Below, one piece after another: positions 56,708 through 63,046 of a stretch of DNA of 64,000 nucleotides. The stretch comes from Amedibacterium intestinale (lineage in GTDB: Bacteria; Bacillota_I; Bacilli_A; Erysipelotrichales; Erysipelotrichaceae), in assembly GCF_010537335.1 (NCBI RefSeq), contig NZ_AP019711.1:248001-312000 (forward strand). The letters run 5' to 3'. A program made the position numbers and the translations under genes. How positions within the stretch are numbered: position 1 is the stretch's first letter; every line of letters starts with the position of its first letter. The notes under the pieces are model-generated. The model was given only the letters and a program-made list of their open reading frames with translations. It was not told where the DNA came from and ran no database searches.

Positions 56708-58102
56708 ATGATTATTCGCTCAATAGATGCTATTATTCGCATGCTTGATGCTGATTATATAGAAAATGGAAATATCGAAGAAAAAATTAAAGGAGTATGT
56801 ATCGACTCTCGTAAAGTTGTAGAAGGGAATCTATATATTCCTATTCATGGTATTAACAACAATGGACATCTGTTTGTCCAACAGGCAATAGACAATGGGG
56901 CTAAAGCTGTTTTATGGGAAAGAAAAGAGGAAAATCCACCAGAAGATGTTGTAGTTATTTTAGTGGATGATACAACAAAAGCTCTGCAGGAGCTGGCAAA
57001 AGCTTATCGTAAACAATTACATATGAAGGTTGTTGGGGTTACAGGAAGTAATGGGAAGACAAGTACAAAAGATATTCTTGCTTCTGTTTTGAAAGAACAT
57101 TACATCACACAGAAAACATTAGGAAACTATAATAATGAAATTGGTGTTCCTTTAACTTTGTTAAGTCTTAATGAAGATGTAGAAGTTGCTGTTGTAGAAA
57201 TGGGAATGGAAAATCTTGGAGAATTATCTTTTTTGACTCACTTGGTAGAACCAGATATTGCAATCATATCAAATGTAGGAACAGCACATTTAGAAAATCT
57301 AGGCACAATGGAAAATATCGCAAAAGCAAAAGTTGAAATTGTGGAAGGACTAAATGAGAATGGATCGCTTATTTATAATGGTGATCAGGAGTTATTAAAA
57401 AATGCTGTACGAGAAAAAGAAATTCCTGGTTCTATTTCCATACGTACATTTGGAATGGACAAGCGAAATGATTACATCGTATCTGCAGTACGTCAGAAAA
57501 AAGAGGGAATATACTTTAGCGTTACACCTTCTGAACAATCATCTTATTTTTTAGATATGATTGGGAAACATCAGGCCATGAATGCGACGGCAGCTATGAT
57601 TGCAGCGAAAGCATTGCATGTAAGTGATGAAGAAATTCAAAGAGGTTTTTCAAATATTGAAAAGACAGGCTTAAGAAATGAATTGGTTGACTGTGATCGC
57701 TGCTTGATTTTAAATGATTCTTATAAGTCTAATCCACAAAGTGCAATTGCTGCACTTGAAACTATGGAAGAGTTTGAAGTTCCATATAAGATTGCTGTTT
57801 TAGGAGATATGCTGGAACTTGGAGAAACAAGTGATCAGATTCATTATGATTTAGGAAAAGAAACAGCAAGATTTCATTTACAGGAAATTTTAACAATTGG
57901 GGATATGGCACGATATATTGCCCAGGGAGCTTTTAATCATAATACAGATGATGTGAAAGTTGTGCATTTTGAAAATAAAGAAGAACTTTCAGAATATCTT
58001 TTCCCATACATGCATAAAGACTGTATGCTTTTGGTAAAGGGTTCACGTGGCATGAAGCTAGATGAATTAGTAAATGTATTAATAGAAAAAAATAAGAAAT
58101 AA
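56708..58102 (+). CDS. murF: UDP-N-acetylmuramoyl-tripeptide--D-alanyl-D-X ligase
   Basis: 464 residues. Mur ligase layout: N-terminal substrate domain (GVCIDSRKVVEGNLYIP), ATP loop VVGVTGSNGKTSTKDIL, EMGMENLGELSFLT, and the C-terminal domain with ILNDSYKSNPQSAIAALE and LGDMLELGE. Adds the terminal D-Ala-D-X dipeptide to UDP-MurNAc-tripeptide. AGAAAGGACG lies ahead of the ATG. The ligase that makes the dipeptide starts 15 bases downstream; if that is D-Ala-D-Ser, this MurF must accept it. Confidence 0.96.
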   Translation: MIIRSIDAIIRMLDADYIENGNIEEKIKGVCIDSRKVVEGNLYIPIHGINNNGHLFVQQAIDNGAKAVLWERKEENPPEDVVVILVDDTTKALQELAKAYRKQLHMKVVGVTGSNGKTSTKDILASVLKEHYITQKTLGNYNNEIGVPLTLLSLNEDVEVAVVEMGMENLGELSFLTHLVEPDIAIISNVGTAHLENLGTMENIAKAKVEIVEGLNENGSLIYNGDQELLKNAVREKEIPGSISIRTFGMDKRNDYIVSAVRQKKEGIYFSVTPSEQSSYFLDMIGKHQAMNATAAMIAAKALHVSDEEIQRGFSNIEKTGLRNELVDCDRCLILNDSYKSNPQSAIAALETMEEFEVPYKIAVLGDMLELGETSDQIHYDLGKETARFHLQEILTIGDMARYIAQGAFNHNTDDVKVVHFENKEELSEYLFPYMHKDCMLLVKGSRGMKLDELVNVLIEKNKK

Positions 58103-58117
58103 AGAGGTAGGAATAAA

Positions 58118-59182
58118 ATGGAAAAGTTACGTTTAGCAGTTGTTTTTGGAGGAAAATCAAGTGAATATCCTGTTTCACTTCATTCAGCAGGAAGTTTGAT
58201 TCATTCCTTGCATAAAGAAAAATATGAACTTATTTTGATTGGAATTAGTGAAAATGGGGAATGGTATGCATATGATGGAGATATAGAAAGTATCGAACAT
58301 GATCATTGGCTGCAGGAACAATACTGTACACCATGTGTACTTTCTTGCTCAACACATTTCAAAGGTTTCTTGAAATTAAAAGAGGATGGAAACTATGAGC
58401 AGATTCCTGTTGATTGTATCTTTCCAGTTCTACATGGAAAAAACGGGGAAGATGGTACAATTCAAGGGTTATTTGAATTAAGTGGCATACCATATGTTGG
58501 ATGTGGTCATATGAGTAGTTCCGTATGTATGGATAAAGAAATGACACATATTATTCTTGAACATGCGAAAGTTCCATGTGCTCCATATATGTGCATTTAT
58601 GAAGAAAAAGATATGGACTATAAAAAAATCTTTGAAAGTGCGAAAGAAACACTTGGTCTTCCTATTTTTATTAAACCGGCGAATGCAGGAAGTAGTTTTG
58701 GAATTCATAAAGTGGAAGATTTTTCTGAATTTGAAGAAAGCATGAAAGATGCTTTCTATCATGATGGAAAAGGAAAAGTGATTTTAGAAACAACTATTGA
58801 GGGATTTGAAATCGGTTGCGCTGTTATGGGAAACAAAGAATTGTTTGCCGGCAGCGTTGATGAAATTGAAACAGCAGCTCCATTCTTTGATTATGAGGGA
58901 AAATACCAAATGGTAGATTCTCATATTTATTGTCCTGCACGTATTTCAAAAGAATTGTTTGAAGAGGCAAGAAGTATGGCATTACAGGCATATCGTGCAT
59001 TGAATTGTAAAGGAATGACACGTGTGGATATGTTTGTAACACCACAAAATACAATTGTATTAAATGAAGTAAATACAATTCCAGGCTTTACATCAACTTC
59101 TCGTTATCCTACAATGATGAAAGAGGCTGGTATTGAATTTGGAGATTTACTAGATAAATTAATTGCGTTGGCAATGGAATAA
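58118..59182 (+). CDS. ddl: D-alanine--D-alanine/D-serine ligase, VanC/VanG-like class
   Basis: 354 residues, ATP-grasp ligase. N-terminal VVFGGKSSEYPVSLHSA (E16) and FPVLHGKNGEDGTIQG, ATP-binding IFIKPANAGSSFGI, and LNEVNTIPGFTSTSRYPTMM near the end. Several parts differ from housekeeping Ddl and agree with VanC/VanG D-Ala:D-Ser ligases: SEYPVSL, the omega loop FFDYEGKYQMVDSHIYCPA (~256-274) with Ile270 where Ddl has a Tyr before the PA motif, and SRYPTMM. I therefore infer D-Ser as second substrate, though D-Ala activity is not excluded. RBS AGAGGTAGG; alr follows. Confidence 0.88.
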   Translation: MEKLRLAVVFGGKSSEYPVSLHSAGSLIHSLHKEKYELILIGISENGEWYAYDGDIESIEHDHWLQEQYCTPCVLSCSTHFKGFLKLKEDGNYEQIPVDCIFPVLHGKNGEDGTIQGLFELSGIPYVGCGHMSSSVCMDKEMTHIILEHAKVPCAPYMCIYEEKDMDYKKIFESAKETLGLPIFIKPANAGSSFGIHKVEDFSEFEESMKDAFYHDGKGKVILETTIEGFEIGCAVMGNKELFAGSVDEIETAAPFFDYEGKYQMVDSHIYCPARISKELFEEARSMALQAYRALNCKGMTRVDMFVTPQNTIVLNEVNTIPGFTSTSRYPTMMKEAGIEFGDLLDKLIALAME

Positions 59183-59195
59183 AAGAGGTGAAAAC

Positions 59196-60344
59196 ATGCT
59201 GGAAAGCAAAAGCAGAGCATGGGTAGAAATAGATCTTTCAAAAATTAAGCATAATGTAGAGGAAATACGTAAAATTCTTCCTTCTACGACAAAAATCATG
59301 GCAATTGTAAAAGCTAATGCTTATGGGCATGGGGATGTTGTGTGCTGTAAAGAGTTGGAAAAATGCGGTATTGATTTTTTTGGTGTAAGTAGTATTGATG
59401 AGGCTTTAACACTCAGAGAAAATGGTATTCAGGAAGAAATTTTGATTTTAGGGTATACACCTCCAGAACATTTTCATTATGTGATAGAAAAGAATCTAAT
59501 TCAAACTTTTCTTTCTTTAGATTATGCGAAAAAGGCCGACAAATATTGCGAAGAGCATCATGTCATTATGAGAGGGCATATTAAGGTAGATACAGGTATG
59601 TCAAGACTTGGGATAATTTGTCAGGAACAGGAATACCATATTGAACAGATTGAAGAAATATATCGCATGAAACACATTAAAGCAGAAGGGATTTTCTCGC
59701 ATTTTAGTGTAAGTGATGAATTGGATGCGGACAATAAGAAGTTCACATCGAAACAAATTGAATTATTCGAACGTGTTCTTTCTGATTTGAAAAAAGATGG
59801 AATAGATGCAGGAATTCGTCATTTACAAAACAGTTATGGGATATTAAACTATCCTGAGCTGCAGTATGATTATGTTAGACCTGGACTTTTATATTTAGGA
59901 GCAACTAGCAATGATCAGATTGAAACAGTGACGCATCCTGATTTCAAACCTATTATGGAATTGAAAGCAAATATTTCTTTGGTTAAGACCATTCAGCCAA
60001 ATGTAAGTGTAAGTTATGGGCGTCACTTTATAAGTAAAGATGTACGAAAAATTGCGACAGTTTCTATTGGATATGCAGATGGATATCCAAGAAGTGTTTC
60101 TAATAAAGGAGCAGTCGTTCTTTTACATGGGAAACGTGTGCCAATCATTGGAAATATCTGTATGGATCAGTTAATGATTGATGTTACAGAAATAGAAGAT
60201 GTAAAAGAAGGGGATGTCGTAACATTATTTGGGAAAGATGGGGATGAAGTTTTGCCAATTGATGAATTGACAAGACTAGCTCAAACGATTAATAATGAAA
60301 CATTCTGCTGGATTACGGCAAGAGTTCCTAGAATATATAAATAG
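59196..60344 (+). CDS. alr: Alanine racemase-fold enzyme, possibly serine racemase (VanT-like)
   Basis: 382 residues from MLESKSRAWVEID; AGAGGTG selects ATG 59196. PLP lysine K39 in IVKANAYGHG, second catalytic Tyr in VSYGRHF, GYADGYPR and GNICMDQLMIDVT are all present. At the substrate pocket, where Alr enzymes have TINYE, this protein has TINNE (Asn367, codon 60294-60296); in VanT serine racemases the same Tyr-to-Asn change is linked to serine use. No membrane domain is fused. A terminator overlaps its stop. It may be the cell's alanine racemase, a serine racemase or both. Confidence 0.9.
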   Translation: MLESKSRAWVEIDLSKIKHNVEEIRKILPSTTKIMAIVKANAYGHGDVVCCKELEKCGIDFFGVSSIDEALTLRENGIQEEILILGYTPPEHFHYVIEKNLIQTFLSLDYAKKADKYCEEHHVIMRGHIKVDTGMSRLGIICQEQEYHIEQIEEIYRMKHIKAEGIFSHFSVSDELDADNKKFTSKQIELFERVLSDLKKDGIDAGIRHLQNSYGILNYPELQYDYVRPGLLYLGATSNDQIETVTHPDFKPIMELKANISLVKTIQPNVSVSYGRHFISKDVRKIATVSIGYADGYPRSVSNKGAVVLLHGKRVPIIGNICMDQLMIDVTEIEDVKEGDVVTLFGKDGDEVLPIDELTRLAQTINNETFCWITARVPRIYK

Positions 60345-60364
60345 CCATCTTTATGGCTATTTTT
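60339..60364 (+). terminator. Terminator overlapping the alr stop codon
   Basis: AAATAGCCAT (60339-60348) pairs with ATGGCTATTT (60353-60362) around CTTT, followed by more Ts. It should reduce transcription into the acyltransferase gene, which has little room for its own promoter. Confidence 0.85.
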
Positions 60365-60386
60365 TCAAAACAAGGAGGATTAGAGG

Positions 60387-61424
60387 ATGGAAAGAAAGAA
60401 TTATTATGCATTGGATGTGGCTAAATTTATTAGTGCTTTTTTGGTTATTTGTATACATACAGCGCTACTGGCTACGATATCTCCAGATGCTAATTTTATC
60501 TTAGTACAGATTATCGCAAGACTTGCAGTACCATTGTTTTTCATAATTTCCGGTTTTCTATTTTTTACAAAAATTAATACGAATAGGGAATGGAATGATG
60601 CTGAAAATCGTTATCAGCTAAAGCATTATTTATATCGAATCTTTAAAATTTATATTATATGGACGATTTTATATTTACCTTTCTCATACTTGTTGATAAG
60701 GGGACAAAATGATTTTGGAATGGCATTGGCACAGTACATAAAAGATTTTTTCTTTAATGGAAGTTATTATCATTTGTGGTTTTTACCAGCTTTATTATTT
60801 GGTATGTGTATTGTCTATTTTTTAAGAAGTCATTTTTCAATGCGTATGACAATAGGAATTTCCATGGTGTTATATTTAATTGGCATGGCAGGTAATATTT
60901 ATCCAGACGTATTGGAATCTATACCAGGTATCAGCACTGTATATGATGCCTATACTTCCATATTCTCAACAACCCGTAATGGATTTTTCTTTGCGCCTGT
61001 TTTTCTTTCTTTAGGAGCCTATTATGCACAGCATAGAAGAAAAGTATCTCATAATTCTAAAATGATGCTTTTCGGTTTTATTGTTTCTTTTGTTGGGTTA
61101 TGTATAGAGTGTTTTTATTTACGGAAAGCAGGATTTATGCATGATTTAGCAAGTATGTATTTATTTTTGATTCCTGCTGTTAGTTTCCTATTTGCATTTC
61201 TATTGCAGCTGGAATGGAGGGATAGACCGATTTATAAAATGTTGCGCATATTGTCTTTGCTTATTTATGTATCTCACATTATGTTTGTTGTTGTATTGTT
61301 TGCTTTATTGCCAAATGCAGGGAATTTGCTTATTTATGTATTATCCTGTATATTATCTCTTGTATTTTCTATTTGTGTTTATGGTTTTTCAAAAAAATGG
61401 AGGATATTCAAACATTTGTATTAG
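60387..61424 (+). CDS. Membrane acyltransferase (acyltransferase 3 family)
   Basis: 345 residues with about ten membrane helices. N-terminal YYALDVAKFISAFLVICIHTALL contains the family His (CIHT), followed by ARLAVPLFFIISGFLFF and YYHLWFLPALLFG, the usual acyltransferase-3 pattern. Family members O-acetylate sugars or wall polymers, and a similar domain forms the N-terminal half of VanT serine racemases, proposed to help L-serine uptake. Neighbouring alr makes that comparison relevant. AAGGAGG precedes; the FAD enzyme follows after 15 bases. Confidence 0.85.
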   Translation: MERKNYYALDVAKFISAFLVICIHTALLATISPDANFILVQIIARLAVPLFFIISGFLFFTKINTNREWNDAENRYQLKHYLYRIFKIYIIWTILYLPFSYLLIRGQNDFGMALAQYIKDFFFNGSYYHLWFLPALLFGMCIVYFLRSHFSMRMTIGISMVLYLIGMAGNIYPDVLESIPGISTVYDAYTSIFSTTRNGFFFAPVFLSLGAYYAQHRRKVSHNSKMMLFGFIVSFVGLCIECFYLRKAGFMHDLASMYLFLIPAVSFLFAFLLQLEWRDRPIYKMLRILSLLIYVSHIMFVVVLFALLPNAGNLLIYVLSCILSLVFSICVYGFSKKWRIFKHLY

Positions 61425-61439
61425 AAAGGAATTTTTCAT

Positions 61440-63032
61440 ATGTTACGAATTCAACAACTGCGTTTATCGTTAGATGAACCAAAGGAATGCTTGGAAGAAA
61501 AAATAATAAAAAAGCTGCATATTCATAAAGAAGATCTTTTAGAATGGCATTTACGAAAAGAAAGTATTGATGCCAGAAAACAAAATGATTTTCATTTTAA
61601 TTGCTGTGTAGATTGTAAAGTAAAAAATGAGGATACTCTTTTAAAGAAAAAAATCAAAGATGTTACCAAAGCCCCTGATGAAAGTTATACAATTCCTGTG
61701 TGTGGAATGGTGGGATTATCTACACGACCAGTAGTTGTAGGGTTTGGACCAGCAGGCATGTTTGCATCTTTACTATTAGCACAGGCAGGCTTTCGTCCGA
61801 TTGTGATAGAGCGAGGAGAATGTGTTGAAGAAAGAGTAAAAAGTGTTCAGGAATTTTGGGAAAAAGGAATTTTGAAAGAAAATAGCAACGTGCAGTTTGG
61901 AGAAGGGGGAGCAGGAACTTTCTCTGATGGAAAACTAACAACTCGTGTAAAAGATAAACGAATTTATAAAGTATTAGAAGAATTCGTGCGTTTTGGAGCA
62001 CCTAAGCAGATTTTATATGAAGCACACCCTCATATTGGTACAGATTTATTACGTAATATCGTAAGAAATATACGTAAAGAAATTCAATCTTTAGGTGGAG
62101 AAATTTACTTCCAGTCACAGTTGGAAGATGTAGAAATCCAAAAAGGGAGATTAGAGGCAATCATTGTAAATGGAAAACGAATTCCTTGCGAACAAATGAT
62201 TTTAGCAATCGGTCATAGTGCAAGAGATACCTTGCGCATGCTGATGAAAAGAGGTTTCTATATCGAACCTAAACCATTTGCGATTGGAGCTCGTATTGAA
62301 CATCCGCAATCGATAATTGATAAAGCGCAATATAAATCATTCGCTGGACATCCCCGCTTAAAATCTGCAGAATATCGTTTAACATATCAGGCATCGAATG
62401 GAAGAGGTGTTTATACATTTTGTATGTGTCCAGGTGGATATGTTGTACCATCTGCTTCCATGCAAGGTGGTGTTGTGGTAAATGGAATGAGCGAGCATGC
62501 TCGTGATGGAGAGAATGCGAATAGTGCATTGTTAGTACAGATACGACCAGAGGATTATGGAAATACGCCAGAAAAAGCCATTGCATTTCAGGAAGATTTA
62601 GAAAGAAAAGCATTCTTAAAAGCTGGAAGCAATTATAAAGCACCCGCACAGCTGGTAAAAGACTTTTTAAAACATCGACCATCTACGGTCATGAAAAGTG
62701 TTACTCCTACCTATGCTTTAGGTGTAACTCCATGTGATCTTCATGATATTCTACCTTCCTATGTTTGTGAAGCTATGGAGGAAGGAATTAAAGGATTGGA
62801 TCGTAAATTAAAAGGATTTGCTATGGATGATGCTGTTCTTACAGGAATAGAAACAAGAAGCAGTTCTCCTGTACGTATTACACGTGAAAAAGATTGTCTA
62901 TGTGTAGGGATACAAGGATGCTATCCATGTGGAGAAGGTGCAGGTTATGCAGGAGGTATTGTATCTGCTGCTATTGATGGACTTCGCTGTGCAGAAAAAA
63001 TTATTGAGATCTATCATTTGGAAGAGAGCTAA
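61440..63032 (+). CDS. FAD-dependent oxidoreductase (COG2509 type)
   Basis: 530 residues. A short N-terminal domain (~1-90, KKLHIHKEDLLEWHLRKES...) precedes the dinucleotide-binding motif VVVGFGPAGMFASLLLA with GFRPIVIERG. Further conserved parts: NVQFGEGGAGTFSDGKL, HPHIGTDLL, CMCPGGYVVPSAS and CGEGAGYAGGIVSAAIDG. Widespread, uncharacterised dehydrogenase family. Terminator overlaps the stop. Confidence 0.88.
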   Translation: MLRIQQLRLSLDEPKECLEEKIIKKLHIHKEDLLEWHLRKESIDARKQNDFHFNCCVDCKVKNEDTLLKKKIKDVTKAPDESYTIPVCGMVGLSTRPVVVGFGPAGMFASLLLAQAGFRPIVIERGECVEERVKSVQEFWEKGILKENSNVQFGEGGAGTFSDGKLTTRVKDKRIYKVLEEFVRFGAPKQILYEAHPHIGTDLLRNIVRNIRKEIQSLGGEIYFQSQLEDVEIQKGRLEAIIVNGKRIPCEQMILAIGHSARDTLRMLMKRGFYIEPKPFAIGARIEHPQSIIDKAQYKSFAGHPRLKSAEYRLTYQASNGRGVYTFCMCPGGYVVPSASMQGGVVVNGMSEHARDGENANSALLVQIRPEDYGNTPEKAIAFQEDLERKAFLKAGSNYKAPAQLVKDFLKHRPSTVMKSVTPTYALGVTPCDLHDILPSYVCEAMEEGIKGLDRKLKGFAMDDAVLTGIETRSSSPVRITREKDCLCVGIQGCYPCGEGAGYAGGIVSAAIDGLRCAEKIIEIYHLEES

Positions 63033-63046
63033 AAAGCTCTTTTTTT
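63025..63046 (+). terminator. Terminator after the FAD oxidoreductase
   Basis: AGAGCT (63025-63030) and AGCTCT (63035-63040) with AAAA loop, then six Ts; overlaps the stop codon. Confidence 0.8.

Follow-up and report, generated by a model that had tools for sequence, protein, structure and literature searches.

The 64,000-nucleotide stretch of Amedibacterium intestinale DNA analysed here (the window) carries a ligase, a serine-type racemase and a VanT-like membrane protein, a combination that elsewhere forms a vancomycin-resistance cassette and that here lies in an ordinary cell-wall operon. Judged from its sequence features, this locus is likely to be a housekeeping rather than an acquired module, and its products would make peptidoglycan precursors ending in D-Ala-D-Ser. 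There is strong evidence that the housekeeping position is occupied by a ligase of the D-Ala:D-Ser type: family models, comparisons with solved structures and folds, the phylogeny and the selectivity residues all point to it, and this ligase call has a high probability of being right. The features of the locus are as follows, with positions counted from the first letter of the window.

56708-58102, + strand: murF (MurF1 type), the first gene of the operon (TIGR01143, 406.8 bits; PF01225, PF08245 and PF02875)
58118-59182, + strand: VanG-type ligase of 354 amino acids (AA), D-Ala:D-Ser class (NCBIfam VanG, 4fu0, fold, tree and D248/F257/R329)
59196-60344, + strand: VanT-type catalytic subunit of 382 AA, a predicted serine/alanine racemase with an alr-like annotation (vanT-G-Cterm, 4ecl, N367 and tree)
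60339-60365, + strand: terminator-like hairpin with a T run between the racemase and membrane genes, read from the sequence (the hairpin scan lists it on the - strand)
60387-61424, + strand: VanT-type membrane subunit (Acyl_transf_3/TmAT) of 345 AA (NCBIfam VanT membrane halves; PF01757; K13-x10-H24)
61440-63032, + strand: FAD-dependent protein encoded in the same direction as the operon (PF21688)

The operon is thus ordered murF, D-Ala:D-Ser-type ligase, VanT catalytic half and VanT membrane half. The stop codon of murF and the ATG of the ligase gene are separated by 15 nt, and the likely ATG of the racemase at 59196, within an open reading frame spanning 59163-60344, lies 13 nt past the ligase stop. 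The gene for the FAD-dependent protein belongs to the same gene run, starting 15 nt past the VanT membrane gene, and is followed by a terminator-like hairpin at 63020-63045. The surroundings of the operon comprise genes for an HTH repressor-like protein, a methyltransferase and a MarR-like protein. At the locus examined, neither vanXY nor vanX was found between the operon genes, no VanRS regulators are encoded by the genes adjoining the operon, and there are no inverted repeats of the mobile-element type within it. Hairpins similar to that at the end of the racemase gene occur in three other loci (L042, L043 and L044), and a promoter-like TTGACA-18-AATAAT is located in the end of the racemase gene at 60267-60296. 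In more distant genera, the racemase and VanT membrane genes abut or overlap.

The ligase ORF is intact, lies between murF and the racemase gene exactly where a preliminary description of this DNA had placed it, and contains the domains PF01820 and PF07478. The motifs named there, SEYPVSLHSA, FPVLHGKNGEDGTIQG, FFDYEGKYQ and SRYPTMM, are all found in the protein. Among the Van and Ddl models of NCBIfam, VanG gave the best score with 460.6 bits, compared to 383.7 bits for the Ddl model (PRK01966.1-4), 365.2 bits for D-Ala-D-Ser and 320.4 bits for D-Ala-D-Lac ligases. Since this best score is below the curated VanG cut-off of 495 bits, the protein is, by its sequence, to be regarded as a close relative of VanG and not as VanG itself. 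In a sequence search of the PDB, the best solved structure was VanG (4fu0) with 350 bits, the runner-up reaching 257 bits; the resemblance to VanG is much greater than chance would give. The AlphaFold2 model of the ligase has a pLDDT of 91.5, with weaker values at residues of about 251-270, which form the omega loop, and its best Foldseek match was again 4fu0 (E-value 8e-45, TM 0.90; runner-up E-value 4e-40). The ligase tree separates a Van-type set from Ddl (support 99/97) and has the window ligase on the Van side, where the housekeeping set of its family is the sister of the vanG-operon set (86/93). Both the phylogeny and the structure model had been proposed as checks in the preliminary description, and its reading of a D-Ala:D-Ser-type ligase in the ddl position is borne out by the grouping with Van rather than D-Ala:D-Ala ligases, by VanG as the best match in the HMM, PDB and fold comparisons, and by the selectivity residues.

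These residues are reportedly D243, F252 and R324 in VanG, as Meziane-Cherif is said to have described in 2012. Positions 243, 252 and 324 of 4fu0 are D, F and R in agreement with this, and D248, F257 and R329 of the window ligase align with them, meaning that all three residues for D-Ser selectivity are present. DdlA has G, Y and M at the same positions. The omega-loop Tyr and the Met or Leu of the SxYP motif that characterize Ddl are absent from the window ligase, which has F257 and R329 instead. Ile270, previously taken as the place of a lost Tyr, was rejected as a discriminating residue because VanG has an Ile there as well and the position is invariant across the clade.

The partner racemase follows the same pattern. 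It scores 448.3 bits with the vanT-G-Cterm model, under its curated cut-off of 460 bits, versus 367.9 bits with the alr equivalog, and among solved structures the VanTG serine racemase 4ecl matches it best (294.7 bits; next 272). N367 aligns with the Asn of 4ecl at a position where alanine racemases have Tyr, and an Asn at this selectivity position (N696 in VanTG) is what we take to be the VanT signature. Outside the family, 39 of the 43 paired D/F/R clusters in named loci have an Asn racemase and four have a Gln, which supports the combination of D/F/R and Asn as markers. In the racemase tree, a VanT-type clade is split from Alr with an SH-aLRT of 98, and the family set is placed beside the VanT set. 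The only full-length alr of the window genome is this racemase gene.

For the membrane protein encoded next, the sole NCBIfam matches are the vanT-CELN membrane half (positions 5-321, E-value 3.8e-57) and the VanT-L membrane subunit (E-value 2.7e-36). Its K/R-x10-H motif is kept as K13-x10-H24, with His24 in 39 of 40 alignment rows; R-x10-H has been called absolutely conserved in the AT3 family (PMC9833829). The AT3 domain is not fused to the racemase and is encoded as a separate downstream gene. On the basis of these matches, the racemase and the next gene are considered the two halves of a split VanT-like protein beside the ligase. Consequently, van-type genes do adjoin the ligase, against the preliminary description, whose supposed alr is VanT-like and is followed by a VanT-membrane-like gene. 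The membrane domain of VanT was treated as a serine transporter in earlier work (PMC6182600) and its role was called unconsidered or unresolved in 2025 (PMC12423673); a housekeeping D-Ser module would offer a natural test of it.

The arrangement extends far beyond the window. A relative of the ligase (E-value up to 1e-30) was detected in 138 of 146 sampled genomes of the same family, from which about 80 VanG-type and 20-odd Ddl2 loci were extracted. In the family loci, murF, ligase and racemase generally follow each other in this order, which occurs in dozens of genomes. The VanT membrane gene comes next after the racemase in at least 37 loci including the window, some loci ending at contig edges. 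This order, in part with the VanT membrane gene, was found in Longicatena caecimuris (82%), Merdibacter massiliensis, Holdemanella biformis, Faecalitalea cylindroides and Absicoccus porci as well as in Catenisphaera, Faecalicoccus, Breznakia and others, and none of these named housekeeping loci contains vanXY or vanRS. No membrane gene was detected in the Traorella and Dielma loci. In Lachnospiraceae, Brevibacillus and Paenibacillus (Paenibacillaceae), the ligase is accompanied by vanXY and vanT and in many cases preceded by vanRS, giving the order vanRS, ligase, vanXY, vanT. Several variants were also observed. A single frame of about 785-814 AA encodes a fusion of MurF with the VanG-type ligase in L076, L091, L099, L105 and L113 (genomes G028, G061, G065, G009 and G008), the loci L116 and L118 (G129, G143, G108 and G083) come from complete genomes of compact size that combine a D/F/R ligase with an Asn racemase and a second alr, and Sedimentibacter-type loci (L186, L189, L190 and L246) have murF followed by a D/F/R ligase with no adjacent racemase.

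In 35 of the 39 genomes checked, the VanG-type ligase is the only Ddl-family ligase; other PF07478 matches in these 35 stayed below 51 bits and were mostly ORFs of carB or biotin-carboxylase length. In the other four, a second ligase scores 117-126 bits. Ddl2 usually lies beside a different MurF, and genomes with Ddl2 alone have this membrane-bearing MurF2 and no match of MurF1 grade. Conversely, genomes with only the VanG-type ligase lack MurF2, and both are present in the window genome and 14 others in the same search. Most lineages therefore have one MurF-ligase module or the other, and the two occur together in the clade of the window. For relatives with only the VanG-type ligase, a D-Ser ending is probably the default.

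The window genome consists of one contig of 2,488,096 bases (GC content of the window 34.4%). Its second ligase, Ddl2, is located at C1:2380535-2381764 beside a second MurF-like gene, and the MurF2-Ddl2 pair covers C1:2379012-2381764 (L005:6013-8764, genome G000). MurF2 lacks PF01225 and carries a membrane part at its N-terminus. Ddl2 is without the usual omega-loop Tyr and ends in NTIPGSLxxYLW. A VanX or VanXY elsewhere in this genome was ruled out, as PF01427 is absent and the three VanY-family proteins, all encoded away from the operon, have N-terminal membrane segments and look membrane-anchored. For these reasons, D-Ala-D-Ala precursors would not be cleared inside the cell. As the second Ddl has its own MurF, D-Ser need not be the sole precursor end in this organism. 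The MurF2-Ddl2 module probably adds D-Ala-D-Ala and the precursor pool may be mixed, so that exclusive D-Ser precursors fit the sole-ligase relatives better than the window genome.

Ligase and racemase residues change together. Of 68 family loci whose ligase has F and R (D/F/R), 63 have an Asn racemase, compared to none of ten without these residues, and so do all 28 pairs of the named housekeeping loci. Genomes with Ddl2 alone have a Tyr at the racemase position in 28 of 29 cases and a Leu in one. The ligase tree contains three independent changes away from F/R, which the racemase follows in nearly all pairings, and where the ligase has turned to Tyr, the racemase is also without Asn (G114, L100-L112 and L117). 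With relatedness taken into account, this covariation is not significant (p 0.25, three independent changes). A statistical case based on it alone was rejected for this reason, and it is kept as support. One sub-clade (L100-L102, L104, L106, L108 and L110-L112) has a ligase with Y/F, Y and L and a racemase with D, S or H, and no VanT membrane gene was detected in its loci; judging by these residues, its enzymes may naturally have gone back to D-Ala-D-Ala or turned to a different specificity. A single genome within the Asn clade, G114 (L083), has Tyr in the ligase as well as in the racemase.

According to the proposed mechanism, the VanT-like racemase would make D-Ser and also D-Ala, the latter because no other alr exists in the window genome. 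The VanT-like membrane protein would support it by serine supply or in an acyl-transfer role. The VanG-type ligase would then join D-Ala to D-Ser, and a co-transcribed MurF would add the dipeptide to UDP-MurNAc-tripeptide, giving precursors that end in D-Ala-D-Ser. What the data show directly is the membership by sequence, fold and phylogeny, the selectivity residues, the layout of the operon, its conservation and the covariation with the racemase residue. The enzyme activities, the expression of the genes, how much of the pool ends in D-Ser and any loss of vancomycin affinity are what we infer, and the family pattern yields a direct prediction on precursor endings.

An alternative is that the ligase is a promiscuous ancestral D-Ala:D-X enzyme that has retained D/F/R and the partner Asn and, with D-Ala exceeding D-Ser in the cell, uses mainly D-Ala, so that racemase and ligase would largely yield D-Ala and D-Ala-D-Ala and D-Ser endings would be minor. 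In favour of this, D-Ala has to come from the one racemase in any case, VanT also racemises alanine (Arias 2000, as cited in PMC6182600), and several relatives are reported to be vancomycin-susceptible (PMC6538751). However, the selectivity residues of both enzymes and the VanT membrane half are conserved jointly over many genera, a change of the ligase to Tyr goes along with the loss of the racemase Asn, and genomes relying on the other ligase keep Tyr racemases. This explanation is therefore considered unlikely, though it is the most serious competitor of a D-Ser module. An ordinary D-Ala:D-Ala ligase that resembles VanG by shared ancestry only is very improbable. It would suit the usual ddl place between murF and an alr-annotated gene and the fact that some Ddl models score above their cut-off (NF002528, 383.7 versus 262), but F257 and R329 stand where Ddl has Tyr and Met/Leu, the partner genes are of VanT type, and tree, HMM and fold favour VanG.

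The least probable explanation, to which we give hardly any credence, is a vanG resistance cluster acquired recently, which would have settled next to murF and no longer has vanXY and vanRS. The kinds of genes are those of vanG clusters, and a few members of the family (L096 and L097) do have true vanG-like clusters, with gaps the size of vanXY. Nevertheless, the ligase and racemase clades are sisters of the vanG-operon clades and not nested inside them, locus and order are constant in many genera, and the preliminary description had seen no mobile DNA nearby. Recent acquisition was hence rejected based on trees and synteny.

Published phenotypes of relatives speak against a simple link between the module and resistance. 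Merdibacter massiliensis, which has both MurF-ligase modules, is reported to be susceptible to vancomycin, though resistant to teicoplanin, in disc tests (PMC6538751). A report on Hoskinsella mucinilytica, a relative outside this survey, also describes vancomycin susceptibility (PMC12827125). Low or no resistance is possible in species with both modules because Ddl2 is present, VanXY is missing and D-Ala-D-Ala targets would remain. Erysipelothrix shows intrinsic vancomycin resistance (MIC 32) with no agreed mechanism (PMC9637936). A 2022 survey of vanHAX in Erysipelotrichia found acquired D-Lac clusters and did not mention vanG or D-Ser (PMC9689679).

A wider reading of the housekeeping D-Ser module is tentative and falls somewhat short of being probable. 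It holds that D-Ser-ended peptidoglycan is the default and obligate form across much of the family, that the module of MurF1, ligase, dual racemase and VanT membrane protein replaces MurF2-Ddl2, that the acquired vanG cassette is a mobilised and regulated relative of it, and that the VanT membrane domain has an original cell-wall role. If D-Ser endings are indeed the default, common gut bacteria would build their wall on a low-affinity vancomycin target, which would bear on intrinsic glycopeptide tolerance, on the origin of vanG-type resistance and on why resistance-gene scanners flag or miss such genomes. No description of the four-gene housekeeping form, or of its spread as sole ligase, was found in the open-licence literature.

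The window ligase shares with the housekeeping Ddl its place in the genome, between murF and alr, and the role of precursor ligase, but differs in clade, selectivity residues and partner racemase. The vanG cluster of Enterococcus faecalis and C. difficile (VanG, VanXY, VanT and VanRS) has the same kinds of ligase and racemase with the same selectivity residues, and both systems include the VanT membrane part. In contrast to that cluster, the window genes are joined to a housekeeping murF operon without VanXY, VanX or neighbouring VanRS, and VanT is split into two genes in reversed order, with the racemase first. The vanL cluster likewise encodes VanT as separate membrane and catalytic proteins (NCBIfam vanT-L-mem and vanT-L-cat), there with the membrane gene before the catalytic one and together with VanXY, yet the window membrane protein matches the vanT-L model more weakly than vanT-CELN (125.6 versus 194.2 bits). 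Another parallel is Clostridium innocuum, by taxonomy a close relative and likened here by description, which is reported to have a gene pair of the same kinds, ligase and racemase, on its chromosome, no acquired cluster and a Ser-ended precursor (David et al. 2004, as cited in PMC8888209). The passages on this pair in PMC8888209 do not describe a murF or VanT membrane context or sole-ligase status. The principle of D-Ser precursors is already known from this species in the same passages, and the comparison drawn in the preliminary description fits, as the intrinsic resistance of C. innocuum (MIC 4-16 mg/L) is attributed there to two chromosomal genes that lead to Ser-ended precursors.
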